NCBI RefSeq assembly: GCF_002844535.1
Contig: NZ_PJNH01000002.1
Span: 496,001 to 560,000 of the forward strand
Length of the DNA stretch: 64,000 nucleotides
Direction of reading: 5' to 3'
Origin: Halalkalibacillus sediminis
GTDB lineage: Bacteria > Bacillota > Bacilli > Bacillales > Alkalibacillaceae
Both the position numbers and the translations under genes were made by a program. The stretch's first letter is position 1; each line of letters begins with the position of its first letter. Below, piece by piece: positions 12,259-25,434 of the stretch. The notes below the pieces were generated by a model that was not told where the DNA came from, ran no database searches, and saw only the letters and a list, made by a program, of their open reading frames with translations.

Positions 12259-12285
12259 TTTGTAATCGAAAACTTCTGCCGATAT
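12259..12285 (+). promoter_or_regulatory. Sigma-D-like promoter of yvyF
   Basis: Perfect sigma-D -10 GCCGATAT (12278-12285), 32 bases before the yvyF ATG. The -35 is poor (TTTG at 15 bases). The -10 continues as ATAAT, so an overlapping sigma-A TATAAT is present. Confidence 0.6.
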
Positions 12286-12316: not shown

Positions 12317-12742
12317 ATGGGTGAACTGGCGAATTGTCCGGAATGTGGGACATTGTTTGTCAAAGGTGCACAGACCGTTTGTCGCGATTGTTATTTAGAA
12401 GAGGAAGATAAGTTTCAGCGAGTTTACGAGTTTTTGCGTAAAAAGAAAAATAGAACAGCGACATTGAATGAAGTTTCAGAGAAAACAGAAGTGGAAGAGA
12501 AGCTAATATTAAAATTCATGAAACAAAAGCGTATTCATGCTTCTTCTTTCCCAAATTTAATGTACGATTGTGAACGTTGCGGGAATAAAATATATGAAGG
12601 AAAGCTATGCAAAAACTGCATAGGCGAAATTCAGCAAGACTTAGACACAGAAGATCAAGGCCAGACGATTGCAGAAAAAGAGAAAAGTGATACGACTGGT
12701 GCTTATATAAATGTGAACAAAGAGAACCGCTGGAGTAGATAG
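12317..12742 (+). CDS. yvyF: Flagellar operon protein YvyF
   Basis: A 141-residue protein with paired zinc-binding cysteines at both ends ('CPECGTLF', 'CRDCY', 'CERCGNKI', 'CKNCIG') around a small helix-turn-helix-like centre. It belongs to the family found just upstream of flgM in Bacillaceae flagellar clusters; B. subtilis YvyF is the positional and sequence counterpart. Its molecular role is not established; the zinc ribbons suggest nucleic acid or protein binding. GTCGAGGGG precedes the ATG. Confidence 0.88.
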   Translation: MGELANCPECGTLFVKGAQTVCRDCYLEEEDKFQRVYEFLRKKKNRTATLNEVSEKTEVEEKLILKFMKQKRIHASSFPNLMYDCERCGNKIYEGKLCKNCIGEIQQDLDTEDQGQTIAEKEKSDTTGAYINVNKENRWSR

Positions 12743-12774
12743 AGGGAGAAAAGAACTAATTTTCGGCTCAATAT

Positions 12775-12801
12775 TAAAGAAGCGTAAATATTTGCCGATA
12801 T
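12775..12801 (+). promoter_or_regulatory. Sigma-D promoter of flgM operon
   Basis: TAAA (12775-12778), exactly 15 bases, GCCGATAT (12794-12801): an exact match to the sigma-D consensus. It lies 45 bases before flgM. Confidence 0.88.
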
Positions 12802-12846
12802 AATACATGAATAAAAAGCTCGTTCGAACGAAGGGGTGAACAAAAA

Positions 12847-13116
12847 ATGAAAATTAATCCATTGAAAAACACGACTTTTAATCCTTATCAAAAACAAATA
12901 CAAAAATCAGAAGACATAAAAACTAACGTTCAGCAACCAGATAAATTAGAAATTTCTTCTCAAGCGAAAGAACTTCAAAAAGGTAATGAAATTGAAAAAG
13001 CCCGCCAGGAGAAGGTAGAAGACTTAAAACAACAAGTTCAGGACGGTAAATACAACGTAGATTCACAGAAGACGGCGGAGAAAATGGTTGATTTCTGGTC
13101 TAACCGCCGCATGTAA
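12847..13116 (+). CDS. flgM: Anti-sigma-D factor FlgM
   Basis: An 89-residue polar protein beginning 'MKINPLKNTTFNPYQKQ', with a helical C-terminal half ending 'QKTAEKMVDFWSNRRM', the pattern of FlgM. It holds sigma-D inactive until the hook-basal body is complete. GAAGGGGTG precedes the ATG. A perfect sigma-D promoter just upstream shows the usual feedback, in which sigma-D makes its own inhibitor. flgN follows after 15 bases. Confidence 0.93.
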   Translation: MKINPLKNTTFNPYQKQIQKSEDIKTNVQQPDKLEISSQAKELQKGNEIEKARQEKVEDLKQQVQDGKYNVDSQKTAEKMVDFWSNRRM

Positions 13117-13131
13117 AGGAGGCTTTAACCT

Positions 13132-13629
13132 TTGAGTGTTCAAGCCATTATCGAAAAACTAGAGAAAATCTATCAACTACATGAAAGTCTTTTAAAGTTA
13201 TCAAAGGAAAAAACAGAGCAGATCAAATTGAATGAGATTGAATCTTTCAATCAGATACTGATGACGGAACGTAAGCATGTTCAGGCAATTGAACAGCTCG
13301 AGGCAAAGCGGGTCGAGGAGACACAAGCTTGGTTCCAACAAAACGCTCCAGATGTTCGAGAGCAGACAATTAACTCGCTTATTGGACAGTTAGAAGACTC
13401 CGACGAAAAAAATAAGTTAGAAAAACTATATGGCGATTTCATCATATTGCTAGCTGACTTGAAGCAGCAAGAAAAGCTCAATCATGATTTGACTCAGCAG
13501 TCACTTCAATTTGTACAGCTATCTTTAGAGATGATCCAGCCAAAATATCAATCAGATTTGAATTATAAGAAACCGACCAAGAGTCAGGGTCAACGTGGAA
13601 ATACATCCGCGTTCGATTCGAGAGCATAG
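13132..13629 (+). CDS. flgN: Flagellar export chaperone FlgN
   Basis: A 165-residue, almost wholly helical protein (coiled coil about residues 5-140) in the position of B. subtilis flgN (yvyG). FlgN chaperones the hook-associated proteins FlgK and FlgL, whose genes follow directly. TTG start, 9 bases after AAAGGAGG. The C-terminus is disordered and basic. Confidence 0.88.
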   Translation: MSVQAIIEKLEKIYQLHESLLKLSKEKTEQIKLNEIESFNQILMTERKHVQAIEQLEAKRVEETQAWFQQNAPDVREQTINSLIGQLEDSDEKNKLEKLYGDFIILLADLKQQEKLNHDLTQQSLQFVQLSLEMIQPKYQSDLNYKKPTKSQGQRGNTSAFDSRA

Positions 13630-17503: not shown

Positions 17504-18331
17504 ATGAGAATTAATCATAATATTGCTGCGTTAAACACGCACAACCAATTAACAAACAACACAAACAACACACAGAAGTCTTTGGAGAAATTATCTTCAG
17601 GTCTTCAAATTAACCGTGCAGGAGACGATGCTGCAGGTCTAGCGATTTCAGAGAAAATGCGTGGGCAAATCCGCGGTCTTGAGCAAGCTCAAACAAACGC
17701 TCAAGATGGTATCTCTTTAATTCAAACTGCTGAAGGTGCTTTAAATGAGTCTCACTCAATTCTACAGCGTATGCGTGAACTTTCAGTACAATCTGCCAAC
17801 GATACGAATACTGATGCAGACCGTGCTGAACTTCAAAAAGAGGTTGATCAGTTATCACAAGAATTAACTCGTATCTCTGATAACACTGAGTTTAACACGC
17901 AATCACTTTTAGATGGAACTTTTGAGGGTACTTTCCATATTGGTGCTAACGAAGATCAAAACATTTCACTTGAAATTGATGCAATGGATGCGGAGTCATT
18001 AGGTGTTCAAGGGGAAACTGCAGAAGATGGAATTGATGTTTCAACTCAAGAAGCTGCTAACACTGCTATAACGGCTATTGATGACGCACTTCAATCAGTA
18101 TCTGAACAACGTTCAGAACTTGGTGCTTCCCAAAACCGCTTAGAGCACACAATCAACAACTTAAGTGCTTCAGCTGAGAACTTAACGGCTGCGGAATCTC
18201 GTATCAGAGACGTTGATATGGCGGCCGAAATGATGGAGTTCACTAAGAACAACATTCTTTCACAAGCGTCTCAATCAATGTTAGCTCAAGCCAATCAACA
18301 ACCTCAAGGAGTACTTCAGTTACTTCAGTAA
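17504..18331 (+). CDS. hag: Flagellin
   Basis: A 275-residue short flagellin made of the conserved D0/D1 parts with a minimal variable middle. The N-terminus '[16 protein letters not shown]' and '[20 protein letters not shown]', and the C-terminus '[20 protein letters not shown]' then '[20 protein letters not shown]', are canonical. The frame is uninterrupted, so there is no intron. Transcribed from its own sigma-D promoter and regulated by CsrA/FliW. The ATG is the first after GGGAGGAA; an in-frame upstream extension to 17423 runs through the CsrA sites and is not used. Confidence 0.97.
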
Positions 18332-18374: not shown

Positions 18375-19195
18375 GTATTTCACGGATTTTATACACTATC
18401 GACCAGTAACTTCTCCCTAATTCATCAGCAATCTCTTGGTCAGATGCACACATATTTTTCATTACAATGATTTTATCAATTTCATCATTGGTATAGTTTC
18501 TATTATGTGAAGAGTTTGTAGCAAATACTTCTTAATTCGGATAGAACTCGATTAAACTTTTCCTTCTCTTTCCTTAATCTATATTCCCAATTTGTTTTGT
18601 AAAACATTGAAGTCCAAGTCTTAGAGGACGACTTTATAAGGCTTAAAGAGCTATATGTGTCTAATGAAGACGTTAGCTTTATAATCCATCATTGTGTTTC
18701 TGGGATGTGAAGTTTAAACTATATTTATTTTTACAGGTAGCTTCTCTAATGCCTCTTTGACATAACATTGTAGGTAGAGAACTATGCAAGAGGAAATATA
18801 AATTTTCTTAAGTCTATGATTTATTCGCTTTGATAAGATAAGGGAGCTGTCGTCCATATATAGAGCTGATAGAAATAACGGAGTCATATATTTTTCTAAG
18901 AGAGTAAGAGGAAGATGTTTGAGCCAGTCATTATCATAATAAAATGGAAAGTGTTCGGTAATCATTGGGCTTAATAAAGTTCTTAGTGTCTGGTGTCCCT
19001 TTGAAGGGATCATGTAACCTCCAAAAAGAATCGCTTCCACTTTCGATATAAATACTATTCTTCACCAAAATGCTCACGGTAGTTCAGATTGATTCTCCTA
19101 GAATTTTTATATGGCTTTGTAATTTCTCCATCACCACATATGCTTGCTAATAACACTTCAATTTGTTCAGAAGTTAATTTTTGTTCAATTAACAT
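18349..19195 (-). pseudogene. Decayed LAGLIDADG-type homing endonuclease gene
   Basis: Three fragments in the same order on the minus strand look like one broken protein. (1) From the ATG at 19195: 'MLIEQKLTSEQIEVLLASIC' then 'GDGEITKPYKNSRRINLNY', matching the first LAGLIDADG half, stopped by an internal TAG. (2) After a frameshift near 19040: 108 residues with 'HQTLRTLLSPMITEHF' and 'PLFLSALYMDDSSLILSK', matching the second half ('WYMDDG' motif). (3) At 18532-18349: 'RNYTNDEIDKIIVMKNMC' and 'DQEIADELGRSYWSIVYKI', a helix-turn-helix tail with no start codon. Stops and frame changes make it non-functional. It lies antisense between hag and flaG. Confidence 0.72.
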
Positions 19196-21313: not shown

Positions 21314-21712
21314 ATGGCTTACAATCAACCATATCAAGCATATCAACAGAATTCGATTCAAACGGCATCACCTGGTGAGCTTACTTTGATGTTATACAAT
21401 GGATGTCTCAAGTTCATCAAGTTGGCGAAACGTGGAATCGAAAATAACTCAACAGAAGATAAGAATGTGAACATCCAAAAGGCTCAAAAAATCATCAACG
21501 AGTTGATGGTTACGCTGAATTCAGAATACGAGATTTCAAAACAAATGATGCCTTTATATGATTATATGAATCATCGTTTAGTTCAAGCTAACTTGAAAAA
21601 TGATACTGAAATTTTAGATGAAGTAGAAGGAATGGTAGCTGAATTCCGTGATACTTGGAAGGAAGTTATTAAGCTCAATAAACAGCCTCAAAAAGTTAGT
21701 GTGAATCAATAA
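21314..21712 (+). CDS. fliS: Flagellin export chaperone FliS
   Basis: A 132-residue helical protein with 'YQQNSIQTASPGELTLMLYN' and 'GCLKFIKLAKRGIE', characteristic of FliS. It binds the flagellin C-terminus and delivers it to the export gate. I start at the ATG at 21314; a GTG 4 codons upstream lies inside the GGGAG ribosome site. The stop codon overlaps the fliT ATG (TAATG), so the two are coupled. Confidence 0.94.
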   Translation: MAYNQPYQAYQQNSIQTASPGELTLMLYNGCLKFIKLAKRGIENNSTEDKNVNIQKAQKIINELMVTLNSEYEISKQMMPLYDYMNHRLVQANLKNDTEILDEVEGMVAEFRDTWKEVIKLNKQPQKVSVNQ

Positions 21713-22062
21713 TGTCAGCACTTCATAGACTCCATGATCTAACAGAAAATATAATTGTTCGTATAAAAATGGCGGACAAAAATAATCGGGAAGAAGTCGT
21801 TAGTGAGTTCGATCAGTTTGTTGAAGAGCGGGAGAAGTTGTTGAAAGGCATAAAAGGCCCTTATACTGATGAAGAAAAAGAGCTGGGCTCGAGGTTAGTG
21901 GAACTCGATCAACAGCTTCAATCATTGGTTCAAAATTATTTAAGCTCTTTCCGCACGGATATGGTTTCTTTTCAAAGGAAAAAGGTCTCGAATAAACGGT
22001 ATACGAATCCGTACGCCAGTCTTTACGGCAGGGATGGCAGTTTCATAGACAAAAAGAATTAA
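21712..22062 (+). CDS. fliT: Flagellar chaperone FliT
   Basis: A 116-residue helical protein directly overlapping the end of fliS, the usual place for fliT. FliT chaperones the cap protein FliD. The first 90 residues are predicted coiled coil; the C-terminus 'RYTNPYASLYGRDGSFIDKK' is a polar tail. Ends the flagellar cluster before a strong two-way terminator. Confidence 0.85.
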   Translation: MSALHRLHDLTENIIVRIKMADKNNREEVVSEFDQFVEEREKLLKGIKGPYTDEEKELGSRLVELDQQLQSLVQNYLSSFRTDMVSFQRKKVSNKRYTNPYASLYGRDGSFIDKKN

Positions 22063-22120: not shown

Positions 22121-22167
22121 GAGAGCGCCGGACATAAAATTCAATTTTTATGTCCGGCGCTCTTTTT
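22121..22167. terminator. Bidirectional terminator between fliT and the ATP-grasp gene
   Basis: A 17-bp perfect stem (22123-22139 with 22146-22162, core GAGCGCCGGACAT) flanked by AAAGA on one side and TCTTTTT on the other, so it can end both convergent transcripts. Confidence 0.92.
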
Positions 22168-22178
22168 GAAAGGTGTTC

Positions 22179-24647
22179 TTATATTTGCATTAAATTTACT
22201 GCGTTTTTTACTTGGTTCTCAACAAAACCTAGCTCATTAATCAAACCGTATTCTGGGGTAGTTTTGATATTGAATACTTTGAACTCGCTCGATTGCAAAA
22301 CGAATTCAACTGAAAGGAATGAAATATTCTTATCTAATTCTTGATTAATGACCTCCCCTATACCTTTACTCGATTTCTCCAGTTTGCTTATTTGACTTTT
22401 AGAGTTATAAAAAGTTTCATTTAATACATCAATTAGAGAGAATTGATGGTGTAGGTAATGATTCATTAAAAATTCGTTTATACTGCTGAAGAGTTTCGGG
22501 TGTTTAGCAATTAGTTCCCATTCTCCATTTAAGTTTTTCTGTAGTTGGATACTTGCAACAAAGAGATTATCTTGAAAATGATGCATCTCGTCTAAGTATT
22601 GAATATAATAAGATTTATTTTTAATCAGGTCACTTATTTGATGTGAGAGTTTTAATTGATTCATCATTTCCTGTTTGTTTTCGGAAACGAAGCAATAGTC
22701 ATGACTTTCTCTTTTGATTACTTTAGATGAATTAAAAGAGTTGGAATCGCAGTCTCTTAAAATCAATTGTTTATGATTCTTAAGTTTACTTAATGTGTCT
22801 TTTGTTGAAATTAATTGATCACTTTCTATCAATAATTCCTCCAGCCCCTCTTTTCTTAATACTTTCAAGACCTCTAAATTATTGAGTTCTTTATTTTCAA
22901 TCATTGGGATGCCTTCAAAATCATCTAATATGTGCTTAACCATAGGGGGAGTGTGGTTTATATTATTTATTAACACATCAGGATATCTAACCACATACTC
23001 TCGCCACTCGGATTCCTCAAAAACCTTACCTTTGATTAACATTTCATCGATATCAACATCTTTAGGGTTGAAATAGACAAAGGTACAATCATTAAAAGAT
23101 GAAACATATCCATACGCTAACTTGTCCCTATCGCTCTGGTTGTCATTTTCAATGAGACCAATTAAATTTTGATTAATTTCTTTGTACGGCAACCTGGAAG
23201 ACTTTGAACTGAACATAAAATTATAGGAGTCCCTTTCATTAAACTCATTTGTATAGAAGATTTGGTGTTTAGCTAAATACTCACAATACTTTAAAGTGTT
23301 TATTGCCCTTTCAACTTCGTGAGCTTTTGTCTGAGGTCCAAGGTTGGCTTCATGTATCCAAAAGCGTCGATTTTTATCAATGGCGATATCGATTCCTAAT
23401 TCATCTATAGCTAATCCATATAATTTATCTATATGAAAAGATAGATTCAAAGCTGTATCTTGTAACTTGTGAAATATTTCTTCCCATTCAGCATCAAACT
23501 CTTTTTTGAGAAAATCTTCTATGTCCTTCAGGGGCTGACCTCTATTGATACTGATTTGATTACTCTTCTTATTACCAGTACGTGGGTATAGTTTAGTAAT
23601 CTGCCATCTACCTTCACCGTTTTTTTGCATGTGAGCTCTGAAGTCGAATGGTTGCCCAGTTTTTGTACGTGTATGGATATATTTTTGGATAAGATGTTTC
23701 TTATTTCTTGAAAAAATCACTTCATCCAGCCAATCATAAAACTTACTATAACTAAGTATGACATGATTTTCTCTTTCTGATAGTTTAATCTTGTCGCCCT
23801 TTTCTTCTACGAAATAAATGTTTTCTCCCCTTGCACCTCTTACAGGTTTAATAACTGCTTTTCCGTACTCTTTCAAGCTATCGATTAAAATCTTTTTATC
23901 AGTGATTACTCTGAAAGGAACTAACAAATGTGCAAATTCCCTTTGCTTAACAATCTTGAAAGGCAGGGTTAATTTATCTCCGATAACAAATGAGGTGAAC
24001 GGAATTTCTCTTCTAAGCTTACGTTCAATACGGGATTGACGAGCCACTGTGTTTGGAAAGATGTTATAAATTACTTCCGGAAAATCAACAGTTTCTTTGA
24101 CCCAAACTCCTTGCCTATGAAATTTACCCAGTATTTTCTTGTCATTTAAATCAACATCCTCATCTGAAAAGAAAAATAAGTTAGTGTTTGTTTCATCCGA
24201 AGCTTTTAAAAAGGCCTCGACTCTTTCTTTTGGATAAACCATAGTAGGGTCTTTTTTTCCATAGTATAGTCCTATATTTGTAATATTGTTTATTGACCTA
24301 CCTTCATATAGTTTATTAACTTCCGCATTAAACCTTTTTAGTGTAGGTAGAAAACTGAATTGTATAATCTCATCGATTTTTATAAAATTTTGTGCTTCCA
24401 AATGTGCCGTAATTTCTTTTATCATCTTCAAAAGTTTATTATTAATAGAATTTATAGTCTCGTTGTCTAAGGATTGATCGATGTGTCCCTGTATTGCATT
24501 ATATCCTTCAACAATCGAGCTGAATATTTGAATTGAACTGTTGAATTGTTTCTGTTTGATTAGTTGTTGGAAGTATTCTGTTGCTTCAATCATTGTTTCA
24601 GAAATATGTAAGATCTGTCTTTCTTCTCTTGTGGTTTGTGTCATCAT
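22179..24647 (-). CDS. Duplicated YheC/YheD-like ATP-grasp protein
   Basis: An 822-residue protein in three parts. Residues about 1-125 are helical and polar with no domain I recognise. Residues about 126-480 form a YheC/D-type unit with a complete ATP-grasp: 'YGKAVIKPVRGARGENIYFV', 'DFRAHMQKNG', and the metal-site segment 'GIDIAIDKNRRFWIHEANLG'. Residues about 495-822 look like a second, degenerate copy: 'CTFVYFNPKDVDIDEMLIKG' and 'YPDVLINNINHTPP' are recognisable, but the metal-binding segment has become 'EFKVFNIKTTPEYG' and should not bind Mg-ATP. YheC/D relatives are tied to spore coats and are thought to be ligases; here the gene lies beside the flagellar cluster. AGGAGGG lies 4 or 7 bases before two adjacent ATG codons. 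A sigma-D-like promoter precedes it. Confidence 0.8.
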   Translation of the reverse strand: MMTQTTREERQILHISETMIEATEYFQQLIKQKQFNSSIQIFSSIVEGYNAIQGHIDQSLDNETINSINNKLLKMIKEITAHLEAQNFIKIDEIIQFSFLPTLKRFNAEVNKLYEGRSINNITNIGLYYGKKDPTMVYPKERVEAFLKASDETNTNLFFFSDEDVDLNDKKILGKFHRQGVWVKETVDFPEVIYNIFPNTVARQSRIERKLRREIPFTSFVIGDKLTLPFKIVKQREFAHLLVPFRVITDKKILIDSLKEYGKAVIKPVRGARGENIYFVEEKGDKIKLSERENHVILSYSKFYDWLDEVIFSRNKKHLIQKYIHTRTKTGQPFDFRAHMQKNGEGRWQITKLYPRTGNKKSNQISINRGQPLKDIEDFLKKEFDAEWEEIFHKLQDTALNLSFHIDKLYGLAIDELGIDIAIDKNRRFWIHEANLGPQTKAHEVERAINTLKYCEYLAKHQIFYTNEFNERDSYNFMFSSKSSRLPYKEINQNLIGLIENDNQSDRDKLAYGYVSSFNDCTFVYFNPKDVDIDEMLIKGKVFEESEWREYVVRYPDVLINNINHTPPMVKHILDDFEGIPMIENKELNNLEVLKVLRKEGLEELLIESDQLISTKDTLSKLKNHKQLILRDCDSNSFNSSKVIKRESHDYCFVSENKQEMMNQLKLSHQISDLIKNKSYYIQYLDEMHHFQDNLFVASIQLQKNLNGEWELIAKHPKLFSSINEFLMNHYLHHQFSLIDVLNETFYNSKSQISKLEKSSKGIGEVINQELDKNISFLSVEFVLQSSEFKVFNIKTTPEYGLINELGFVENQVKNAVNLMQI

Positions 24648-24666
24648 AGACCCTCCTTAATACATT

Positions 24667-24674
24667 ATATCGGA
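24667..24674 (-). promoter_or_regulatory. Sigma-D-like -10 of the ATP-grasp gene
   Basis: On the minus strand the sequence reads TCCGATAT and continues as AATG, sharing CCGATATAAT with the promoters at 12278, 12794 and 19280. The -35 at 15 bases is TGAA, not consensus. The ATG is about 20 bases downstream. An overlapping TATAAT could serve sigma-A. Confidence 0.5.
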
Positions 24675-24873
24675 TGGTTACGAATGAAGTTCATACTCCT
24701 TTAGTCCTTTTAAGAAAAAATTAGGTTTAAATACCATTGTTTTTTAAGTTCATAAGAATTATTTTATGTTATAATCAAAATACACAATATTCTAACTTTT
24801 CTCTCAGTTTCAGCTGAAATTGTTGAGGGTAATATAGAATATGTGTTGCACAAGTTGAAAGGAGGACATTATC

Positions 24874-25434
24874 ATGATTTACAACGTAAGAGGTGAAAAC
24901 ATCGAGGTTACCGATGCCATCCGAGAGTATGTAGAGAGAAAGATTTCGAAGTTGGAGCGTTATTTTGATGAACCCGTGACTTCGGAGGTACATGTAAATT
25001 TAAGTGTCCATAATGATGAGCAGCGTATTGAGGTTACCATTCCGATGCCGAACTTATTGCTTCGCGCAGAGGTTTCTCACGCAGACTTATATGCCGCGAC
25101 TGACTTAGTCGTTGACAAATTAGAAAGACAAATTCGCAAACACAAAACGAAAATCAATCGAAAATTCCGTCAGCAAGGAGCTCCAAAGCACGTTTTCGCT
25201 GAGATGGAAAAGGAAGCTGCTGCGAACGGTGCGAAATCCCAAGATGATGATGACATTGAAATTGTGAAAAAGAAACGATTCGACTTGAAACCGATGGATG
25301 AAGAGGAAGCAGTCCTACAAATGGACATGCTGGGTCACGCATTCTATGTTTTTGAAAATGCGGACACAGGTGAAACGAACGTCGTTTATCGACGAAACGA
25401 TGGAAAGTATGGCTTAATCGAGCCGACGGTATAA
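24874..25434 (+). CDS. hpf: Long ribosome hibernation promoting factor
   Basis: A 186-residue long-form HPF (YvyD type). The N-terminal domain starts 'YNVRGENIEVTDAIREYVER' and has the 'HVNLSVHNDEQRIEVTIPMP' sheet; the C-terminal dimerisation domain contains 'KRFDLKPMDEEEAVLQMDML' and 'GHAFYVFENADTGETNVVY'. Long HPF dimerises 70S ribosomes into inactive 100S particles in stationary phase or stress. AAAGGAGG precedes the ATG. A TATAAT lies at 24770-24775; I could not identify a clear sigma-B or sigma-H promoter. Followed by a terminator. Confidence 0.96.
   Translation: MIYNVRGENIEVTDAIREYVERKISKLERYFDEPVTSEVHVNLSVHNDEQRIEVTIPMPNLLLRAEVSHADLYAATDLVVDKLERQIRKHKTKINRKFRQQGAPKHVFAEMEKEAAANGAKSQDDDDIEIVKKKRFDLKPMDEEEAVLQMDMLGHAFYVFENADTGETNVVYRRNDGKYGLIEPTV

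Follow-up and report, generated by a model that had tools for sequence, protein, structure and literature searches.

What is an ATP-grasp protein of the YheC/YheD family doing beside a flagellar gene cluster? The question is raised by a gene for an 822-residue protein in a 64,000-nt stretch of the Halalkalibacillus sediminis genome (contig NZ_PJNH01000002.1, positions 496,001 to 560,000; the window). In Bacillus subtilis, YheC and YheD are linked to spores. A previous sequence-only reading of this DNA had pointed to two ATP-grasp units, a helical N-terminus and a flagellar-type promoter, and our analysis confirmed this core observation. We suggest that the product of the gene is a carboxylate-amine ligase dedicated to flagellin and expressed under SigD control, which perhaps acts on surface glutamates, and we put the probability of this reading at roughly 0.55. 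It is built on six observations: the architecture of the protein, the conservation of its first ATP-grasp unit, the decay of the second, the linkage of the gene to flagellin genes, its SigD-type promoter and a glutamate signature in the flagellins found with it.

A conserved and a decaying ATP-grasp unit

Two stretches of the protein matched PF14398, the profile of the YheC/D ATP-grasp family. The whole protein (E = 1.2e-52, 179.1 bits) and its C-terminal 333 residues alone (E = 4.5e-8, 33.1 bits) both exceeded the curated cut-off of 26.8 bits. An AlphaFold2 model built from 27 orthologues (pLDDT 84.4, pTM 0.65) comprised a helical bundle followed by two ATP-grasp units, hereafter units 1 and 2 (Table 1). 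Judged by profile-profile alignment with hhalign, the two units are homologous over almost their full length (probability 100, E = 4.2e-47, 323 columns). It had been noted in advance that a second half of another fold would speak against a duplicated ATP-grasp protein; profile and fold both say ATP-grasp. In a fold search with unit 2 (model residues 492-822), to which all Z-scored matches refer, LysX reached Z 18.5 (root-mean-square deviation 3.2-3.4, 251-263 residues aligned) and RimK Z 18.2; matches within 1 Z of each other count as tied. Further matches were RimK with RpsF, glutathione synthetase and D-Ala ligases. Protein or peptide ligases are among the matches: LysX/ArgX with LysW, RimK with RpsF, a ligase of ribosomally synthesized and post-translationally modified peptides, and TTL/TTLL. 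The RimK family PF08443 was absent among the profile matches to the protein (limit E = 10), and the likeness to RimK is by fold alone. A sequence search with the whole protein (E up to 0.01) found no relative of solved structure.

Twelve landmark residues of unit 1 (K267, R273, E275, Q321, R337, K342, D407, E416, D420, D424, E433 and N435) were invariant in all 27 aligned sequences; the alignment omits L104 and L119, where the contig is cut, and L127, where the frames are broken. This invariance agrees with the description of unit 1 as an intact YheC/D-type unit. In unit 2 of the window protein, E781, Q785, N793 and K795 take the places of D420, D424, E433 and N435. Unit 2 is thus degenerate, as the sequence-only reading held, although its statement that the acidic ligands are lost is not literally right: one is conservatively replaced (E at the position of D420) and the other is lost (N at that of E433, followed by K at that of N435). 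The unit 2 equivalents of K267, R337, D420, E433 and N435 were jointly kept in 5 of the 27 sequences (L103, L105, L107, L109 and L122). Mean pairwise identity was 0.52 in unit 1 and 0.39 in the N-terminal domain; within unit 2, it was 0.40 in the N-lobe and 0.23 in the ATP-grasp part. A better kept N-lobe beside a decaying active site is what a scaffold would lead one to expect, and the decay is uneven among the orthologues.

Linkage to flagellin genes

The three-part protein (helical domain plus two units) was found in 8 of 22 genomes of the window's family and in 7 of 397 genomes of an even sample of the order. In the order sample, 47 genomes had a match at E up to 1e-35, the other 40 of them in the unit 1 range only. 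A collection of named species, some of which are also among the genomes just mentioned (G numbers), yielded 29 loci (L numbers), 26 of them with a full-length open reading frame (ORF). The carriers include Allobacillus, Aquisalibacillus, Piscibacillus, Tenuibacillus, Alkalibacillus, Siminovitchia, Pseudogracilibacillus, Oceanobacillus, Virgibacillus, Ornithinibacillus, Lentibacillus, Lederbergia and others. Gene names such as hag, flaG, fliD, fliS, fliT, hpf and secA are those we presume from similarity and gene order; flagellin alone had a match to a named entry.

Among the 29 loci, 22 were linked to flagellin, 18 by a flagellin gene within 1.3 kb and four by the slot between fliT and hpf that the gene occupies in the window (L100, L101, L102 and L127; hag 2.8-4.2 kb off). 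In three of these 18 loci the gene lies between hag and flaG (L105, L107, L108), and in the other 15 a flagellin gene is 69-1247 bp away in other places. The adjacent hag may be convergent, divergent or co-directional. Homologues scattered without flagellar linkage, which would have spoken against a flagellar role, were thus not what we found at the full-architecture loci. Five of the seven unlinked loci (L104, L106, L113, L119, L126) end at contig ends; at L106 hpf adjoins the gene. In the genomes of L126 and L113, we found a single flagellin, which starts 235 and 780 bases, respectively, from a contig end; a break in the assembly between the two genes would produce this picture, but it is no proof. 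L128, also unlinked, has partial flanks. Genomes G379 and G190 (L081, L082) have a single detected flagellin (E up to 1e-20), which adjoins the gene, and both genes lie away from flagellar genes recognizable by comparison with the window proteins. The gene thus goes with flagellin itself, not with the flagellar cluster. One orthologue (G013/L127) contains 25 stops, and its neighbours secA, prfB, fliD, flgK and flgL are broken too. The cause is probably poor assembly, and we did not retain the idea of a pseudogene.

At two of these loci we noted unusual neighbours. In L122, a D-Ala-D-Ala-ligase-like gene (12484-13503) overlaps the 3′ end of the three-part gene downstream of two flagellins; it is possible that it supplies a substrate. 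In L100 (Allobacillus, which breaks the glutamate pattern described below), a cytochrome P450 gene (15233-16492) stands between flaG and three flagellin genes.

A SigD-type promoter

The sequence CCGATATAAT occurs four times in the 64 kb of the window, compared with 0.12 expected, and none of 100 shuffles reached four. The copies are at 12279, 12795 and 19281 on the plus strand and at 24664 on the minus strand. The first three are upstream of ORFs at 12317, 12847 and 19301, which we take to be yvyF, flgM and flaG, and the fourth is upstream of the three-part gene. The claim that its promoter carries the core of the flagellar promoters in the window therefore stands. It differs by one mismatch from TAAA-N14-16-CCGATAT (-35 TGAA). 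Judged from the position of the -10, the leader would be very short.

We surveyed other loci by a fixed rule, which asked for TAAA-N14-16-CCGATAT no more than 110 nt from the start and allowed two mismatches, of which the -10 could hold one. Sites were present upstream of 21 of 28 orthologues (the window, the 26 full-length ORFs and L127), compared with 1.2 expected from dinucleotide shuffles. Here, the starts of L103, L105 and L107 were shifted to an internal ATG, and those of L109, L111 and L112 lie a few codons ahead of the alignment start. The same rule found sites at 34 of 331 ORFs of at least 150 aa in the same loci (three-part and flagellar genes counted in).

Glutamate in the paired flagellins

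Flagellins shorter than 300 aa were compared according to whether the three-part gene accompanies them; long ones (L101, L115, L118) and incomplete ones (L111, L125) were excluded from the column tests. For the unpaired set, which is not random, we used family genomes lacking the gene and the list entries most similar to the window flagellin. In an exploratory comparison (21 paired, 26 unpaired), glutamate appeared at several outer positions. We then compared 14 hand-picked paired representatives, about one per genus or lineage, with 60 unpaired ones, one per locus. In segment 126-200, the outer segment, the glutamate fraction was 0.113 in paired and 0.027 in unpaired flagellins (P = 2.9e-8). 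Comparatively, the core segments did not differ significantly (0.077 and 0.070, P = 0.10; 0.074 and 0.070, P = 0.31). Outer aspartate was also higher in paired flagellins (0.091 and 0.066, P = 0.008), and outer Ser plus Thr was lower (0.172 and 0.232). Among the 275 columns tested, along with tests for other residues, E164 was found in 9 of 14 paired but 2 of 60 unpaired flagellins (P = 8.6e-7) and E183 in 9 of 14 but 3 of 60 (P = 3.2e-6). Other flagellins mostly have Ser, Thr or Ala at these positions. In the flagellin of Kurthia, six O-glycosylated Ser/Thr positions are described (PMC6802091).

The difference persisted in a permutation within families (three families, with six paired and 12 unpaired genus-level units), in which P was 0.00055 for glutamate and about 0.002 for each site. 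As a follow-up, we took six flagellins from five carrier genomes in which linkage was not seen. Their glutamate fractions were 0.115-0.165, all six above the 95th percentile of the background (0.073), and E164 was present in four and E183 in five of them, compared with 3 of 69 background sequences each. At the Lederbergia locus, the glutamate fraction is 0.155 for the flagellin next to the gene and 0.085 for another one. In FliD, FlgL, FlgK, FliW and Hpf, no significant difference was seen between five carrier genera and 9-14 non-carriers from the family (P = 0.11-0.95).

Two other candidate features were set aside. Lysine as the marked residue showed no difference in the outer segment (0.031 and 0.040, P = 0.12). 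A short flagellin as partner was seen in 7 of 8 family carriers and 6 of 14 non-carriers; this feature was not used because short flagellins abound among the matches listed for the order.

The N-terminal domain

Folded alone, the N-terminal domain was predicted to form four helices (residues 7-115, pLDDT 90.8), in line with the helical N-terminus read from the sequence. In the model, it is a simple bundle of four helices without an informative relative by fold. By sequence, no solved relative was found (best E 0.47). We also considered homology to FliS or FliT, for which there was no profile support: against the window FliS and FliT, both single sequences, hhalign gave a probability of 0.1 each. 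A FliS chain appeared at rank 50 of the fold search (E = 0.38), and many unrelated bundles scored above it.

The profile of this domain matched in 48 of the 397 order genomes. Seven of these matches are the full-length protein, and most of the others are ORFs of about 115-170 aa. We took 20 stand-alone loci (L159-L178) and recovered the domain as an ORF in all except L177. In 17 of these 19 loci it lies near hag, flaG, fliD, fliS, fliT or similar genes (exceptions L173 and L174), and 6 of the 19 genes have a SigD-type site by the rule above. Six stand-alone proteins had no Pfam match over the cut-off. In the window's family, 4 of 14 non-carriers have a match to the domain near hag (G019, G011, G012, G020). 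G011 (L245 3821-8348) has a row of hag, a Maf-like gene, a stand-alone domain and a second Maf-like gene; the 122-aa domain sits between genes of 597 and 455 aa with Maf (PF01973) matches, the ends overlapping or nearly touching. By these profile matches, G011 is the single case that joins the domain to known flagellin-modifying enzymes. The neighbours of about 560 aa at other loci were considered as glycosyltransferases, but a scan of ten neighbours did not bear this out.

A related arrangement was seen in L168 (5839-9216; G019, from the genus of the Alkalibacillus carriers and without the three-part gene). There, a stand-alone domain, a gene with a NERD domain and a flagellin of 525 aa occupy the hag-flaG slot.

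Relatives of unit 1 outside flagellar loci

Relatives of unit 1 that do not belong to a three-part protein were listed at 50 places, and we compared 22 of these, which are 32-37% identical to the query. Their match to it begins past or at the end of the N-terminal domain. A homologue of L-amino-acid ligases lies within 4 kb in 21 of the 22 loci and a Mur ligase in 14, on the same ORF in seven. YheC/D fused to a Mur ligase is reminiscent of cyanophycin synthetase. Such neighbours make the branch of unit 1 look like amide-forming amino-acid ligases. To this extent, the statement of the sequence-only reading that relatives are usually tied to spores needs correcting. These relatives have a single unit and, unlike the three-part protein, no link to flagellin (0 of 22 stretches) and no SigD-type site (0 of 20; L048 and L098 excluded). 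A recurrent set in Bacilli (L083-L099, L044-L048) consists of a single-unit YheC/D gene, an L-amino-acid-ligase homologue and often a Mur ligase, which may be fused.

Possible function and alternatives

From these observations we infer catalysis, substrate, acceptor residues and the role of the N-terminal domain as follows. SigD would switch the gene on alongside the late flagellar genes. The N-terminal domain may dock on flagellin, its chaperone or the export complex, or recruit the enzyme to them. Unit 1 would use ATP to form an acyl phosphate from a carboxylate and then an amide bond with an amine, and unit 2 may be a decaying copy retained as a scaffold or substrate-holding lobe. The likeliest product would be flagellin carrying an amino acid or short peptide on residues exposed at its surface. 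The glutamate signature suggests as acceptors the side-chain carboxylates of outer glutamates, for example 164 and 183, but these residues may instead simply make an acidic surface. A side-chain carboxylate is the acceptor in reactions of the RimK and TTLL types. In its strongest form, flagellin would be glutamylated or aminoacylated on surface glutamates by a dedicated tandem ATP-grasp ligase, a bacterial counterpart of tubulin glutamylation by TTLL, with glutamate acceptors in these lineages replacing the Ser/Thr available for O-glycosylation in other flagellins; we consider this version less likely than not. The sequence-only reading had proposed flagellin or filament modification with the dead half as scaffold. 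Modification remains the best reading, but unit 2 is not dead everywhere, as the five orthologues named above keep the five landmark equivalents together.

Several observations weigh against a flagellin-dedicated ligase. L124 (V. chiguensis) is a true exception to the linkage, with about 10 kb on each side free of flagellin and two flagellins on another contig. Seven of the 28 upstream regions are under the fixed SigD threshold (L113, L116, L118, L120, L122, L123, L128); in L122, the gene is co-directional with hag and 69 bp downstream of it. The glutamate columns were picked post hoc and re-tested on overlapping data before the follow-up of six sequences, the unpaired flagellins were not randomly drawn, and the control with other proteins rests on five carrier genera. 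Glu plus Asp was also slightly raised in core segment 1-125 (0.139 and 0.128, P = 0.009). The flagellins of Allobacillus (L100) have K, D or N at 164 and T, S or A at 183 despite carrying the gene. Conversely, the long flagellin of L168 is rich in outer glutamate without the gene (0.108), and so are unpaired short flagellins (L218 0.132, L223 0.095, L217 0.083, L210 0.079). Around the stand-alone N-terminal domains, no Maf homologue was found in any of the 20 loci. The ten scanned neighbours comprised no recognizable modifying enzyme; five were chemoreceptors, and the other five were a sensor kinase, a Na/Pi transporter, an AbiU2-type HEPN protein and two weak matches below the cut-off.

The main rival is salt adaptation. 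The gene and glutamate-rich flagellins might co-occur through a saline or alkaline habitat, with the enzyme acting at other flagellin residues or not on flagellin at all. Many carrier genera are halophilic or alkaliphilic, glutamate-rich outer regions without the gene (L168, L218) are readily understood in this way, and so is the slight acidic rise in one core segment. However, the contrast holds within families, the significant rise of glutamate is confined to the outer segment, and the five other proteins of the family genomes did not differ significantly. We regard salt adaptation as a serious possibility, clearly behind a flagellin-dedicated ligase. A role in making or finishing a small precursor seems unlikely to us, for example an amino-acid amide on a glycan that is then put on flagellin, a route suggested for the ATP-grasp proteins of the Shewanella and C. 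difficile flagellin clusters. ATP-grasp proteins do occur in flagellin-modification clusters (SfmE and CDR20291_0245, see below), a Ddl paralogue overlaps the gene at L122, and 4 of 8 family carriers have a strong NeuB match. Yet the fliT-hpf and hag-flaG slots hold flagellar genes without pathway genes, and elsewhere no glycan gene recurs among those neighbours that were annotated. The window genome has no Maf match, and its NeuB match is weak, partial and common to all 22 genomes, so that the Maf-nonulosonate route looks absent there. The lower outer Ser/Thr of the paired flagellins also argues against a glycan.

More doubtful still is a non-catalytic chaperone or regulator of flagellin that uses both ATP-grasp units as a scaffold. 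The decay of unit 2 and an N-terminal four-helix bundle with FliS among its distant fold matches are compatible with it, but the 12 landmarks of unit 1 are invariant and the bundle showed no profile similarity to the single FliS and FliT sequences of the window. The least probable explanation, which we consider very improbable, is an ordinary spore-associated YheC/D protein that lies beside the flagellar cluster by chance. It is suggested by membership of PF14398. It is disfavoured by the SigD-like promoters, by a linkage to flagellin that recurs in several distinct gene settings and three orientations, and by the fact that this is the only YheC/D protein detected in the window genome.

Relation to known systems

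Both units belong to the YheC/YheD family by their profile matches, and unit 1 has its landmarks. Unlike YheC and YheD, the window protein has two units in one chain, an extra four-helix domain, a SigD-type promoter and a tie to flagellin. RimK, LysX/ArgX, TTL/TTLL and the graspetide ligases have a fold in common with unit 2 and act on proteins or peptides. The difference from RimK is that the window protein lacks a RimK profile match and that its substrate is a proposal. Two ATP-grasp proteins are described in flagellin modification: SfmE (SO_3265) of Shewanella oneidensis, whose sfm operon has a predicted upstream FliA site (PMC3765264), and CDR20291_0245 of Clostridioides difficile (PMC5207246). 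As described there, they are of the ATP-grasp_4 type and lie in multi-gene clusters, whereas the present protein is of the YheC/D type and has no recognized pathway cluster.

In the open literature on ATP-grasp proteins, flagellin modification or glutamylation and YheC/D, we found no description of this protein family. The modifications known from flagellins are chiefly glycosylation and lysine methylation (cf. PMC8598068, PMC11339370). Ligation of glutamate, if true, would be new in kind. Likewise, a single ligase gene under SigD control that accompanies its flagellin would offer a compact new way of decorating the filament. The proposal offers a testable prediction, the mass and site of the adduct. 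It would also assign a function to an uncharacterized branch of the YheC/D ATP-grasp family and provide a first clue to a helical domain of about 120 aa that recurs in flagellar clusters of Bacilli.

Features of the window

The gene begins with ATG; the end at 24674 given in the sequence-only reading takes in the promoter. As that reading stated, it adjoins fliT: the two convergent genes are 116 bp apart across a hairpin. The hag gene is the sole flagellin gene detected in the genome (matches with E up to 1e-30). An Rfam scan of the window gave nothing beyond one tRNA.

Table 1. Coordinates of the three-part gene, its parts and its neighbours in the window
Feature	Positions	Strand	Basis
Coding sequence, 822 aa, four-helix domain and two YheC/D-type ATP-grasp units	22179..24647	-	ORF, PF14398, AlphaFold2 model
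N-terminal four-helix domain, residues 6-114	24306..24632	-	model, profile
ATP-grasp unit 1, residues 124-461	23265..24278	-	model, profile, 27-sequence alignment
ATP-grasp unit 2, residues 495-821, degenerate active site	22185..23165	-	profile, alignment, fold search
SigD-type -10, CCGATAT	24667..24673	-	within CCGATATAAT at 24664-24673
SigD-type -35, TGAA, 16-nt spacer	24690..24693	-	promoter scan
Ribosome-binding site, AAGGAGG	24652..24658	-	sequence reading
Terminator-like hairpin of 18 pairs where fliT and the three-part gene converge	22122..22163	.	scan (minus-strand call)
hag, 275 aa, proposed substrate	17504..18331	+	ORF; flagellin comparison
hag codons for Glu164 and Glu183	17993-17995; 18050-18052	+	positions associated with the three-part gene
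fliT, convergent neighbour	21712..22062	+	name presumed from gene order
hpf, divergent neighbour	24874..25434	+	name presumed from gene order

LAGLIDADG_2 endonuclease genes or remnants were noted near the flagellin or the three-part gene in the window (18714-19040, minus strand), L118 (12700-13617), L113 (12603-13244) and L109 (5914-6963). The window copy is under the cut-off (E = 0.0011), those of L118 and L113 are above it, and that of L109 was found by BLAST to the window ORF only. Such endonucleases might help flagellin and its neighbour gene to move together.

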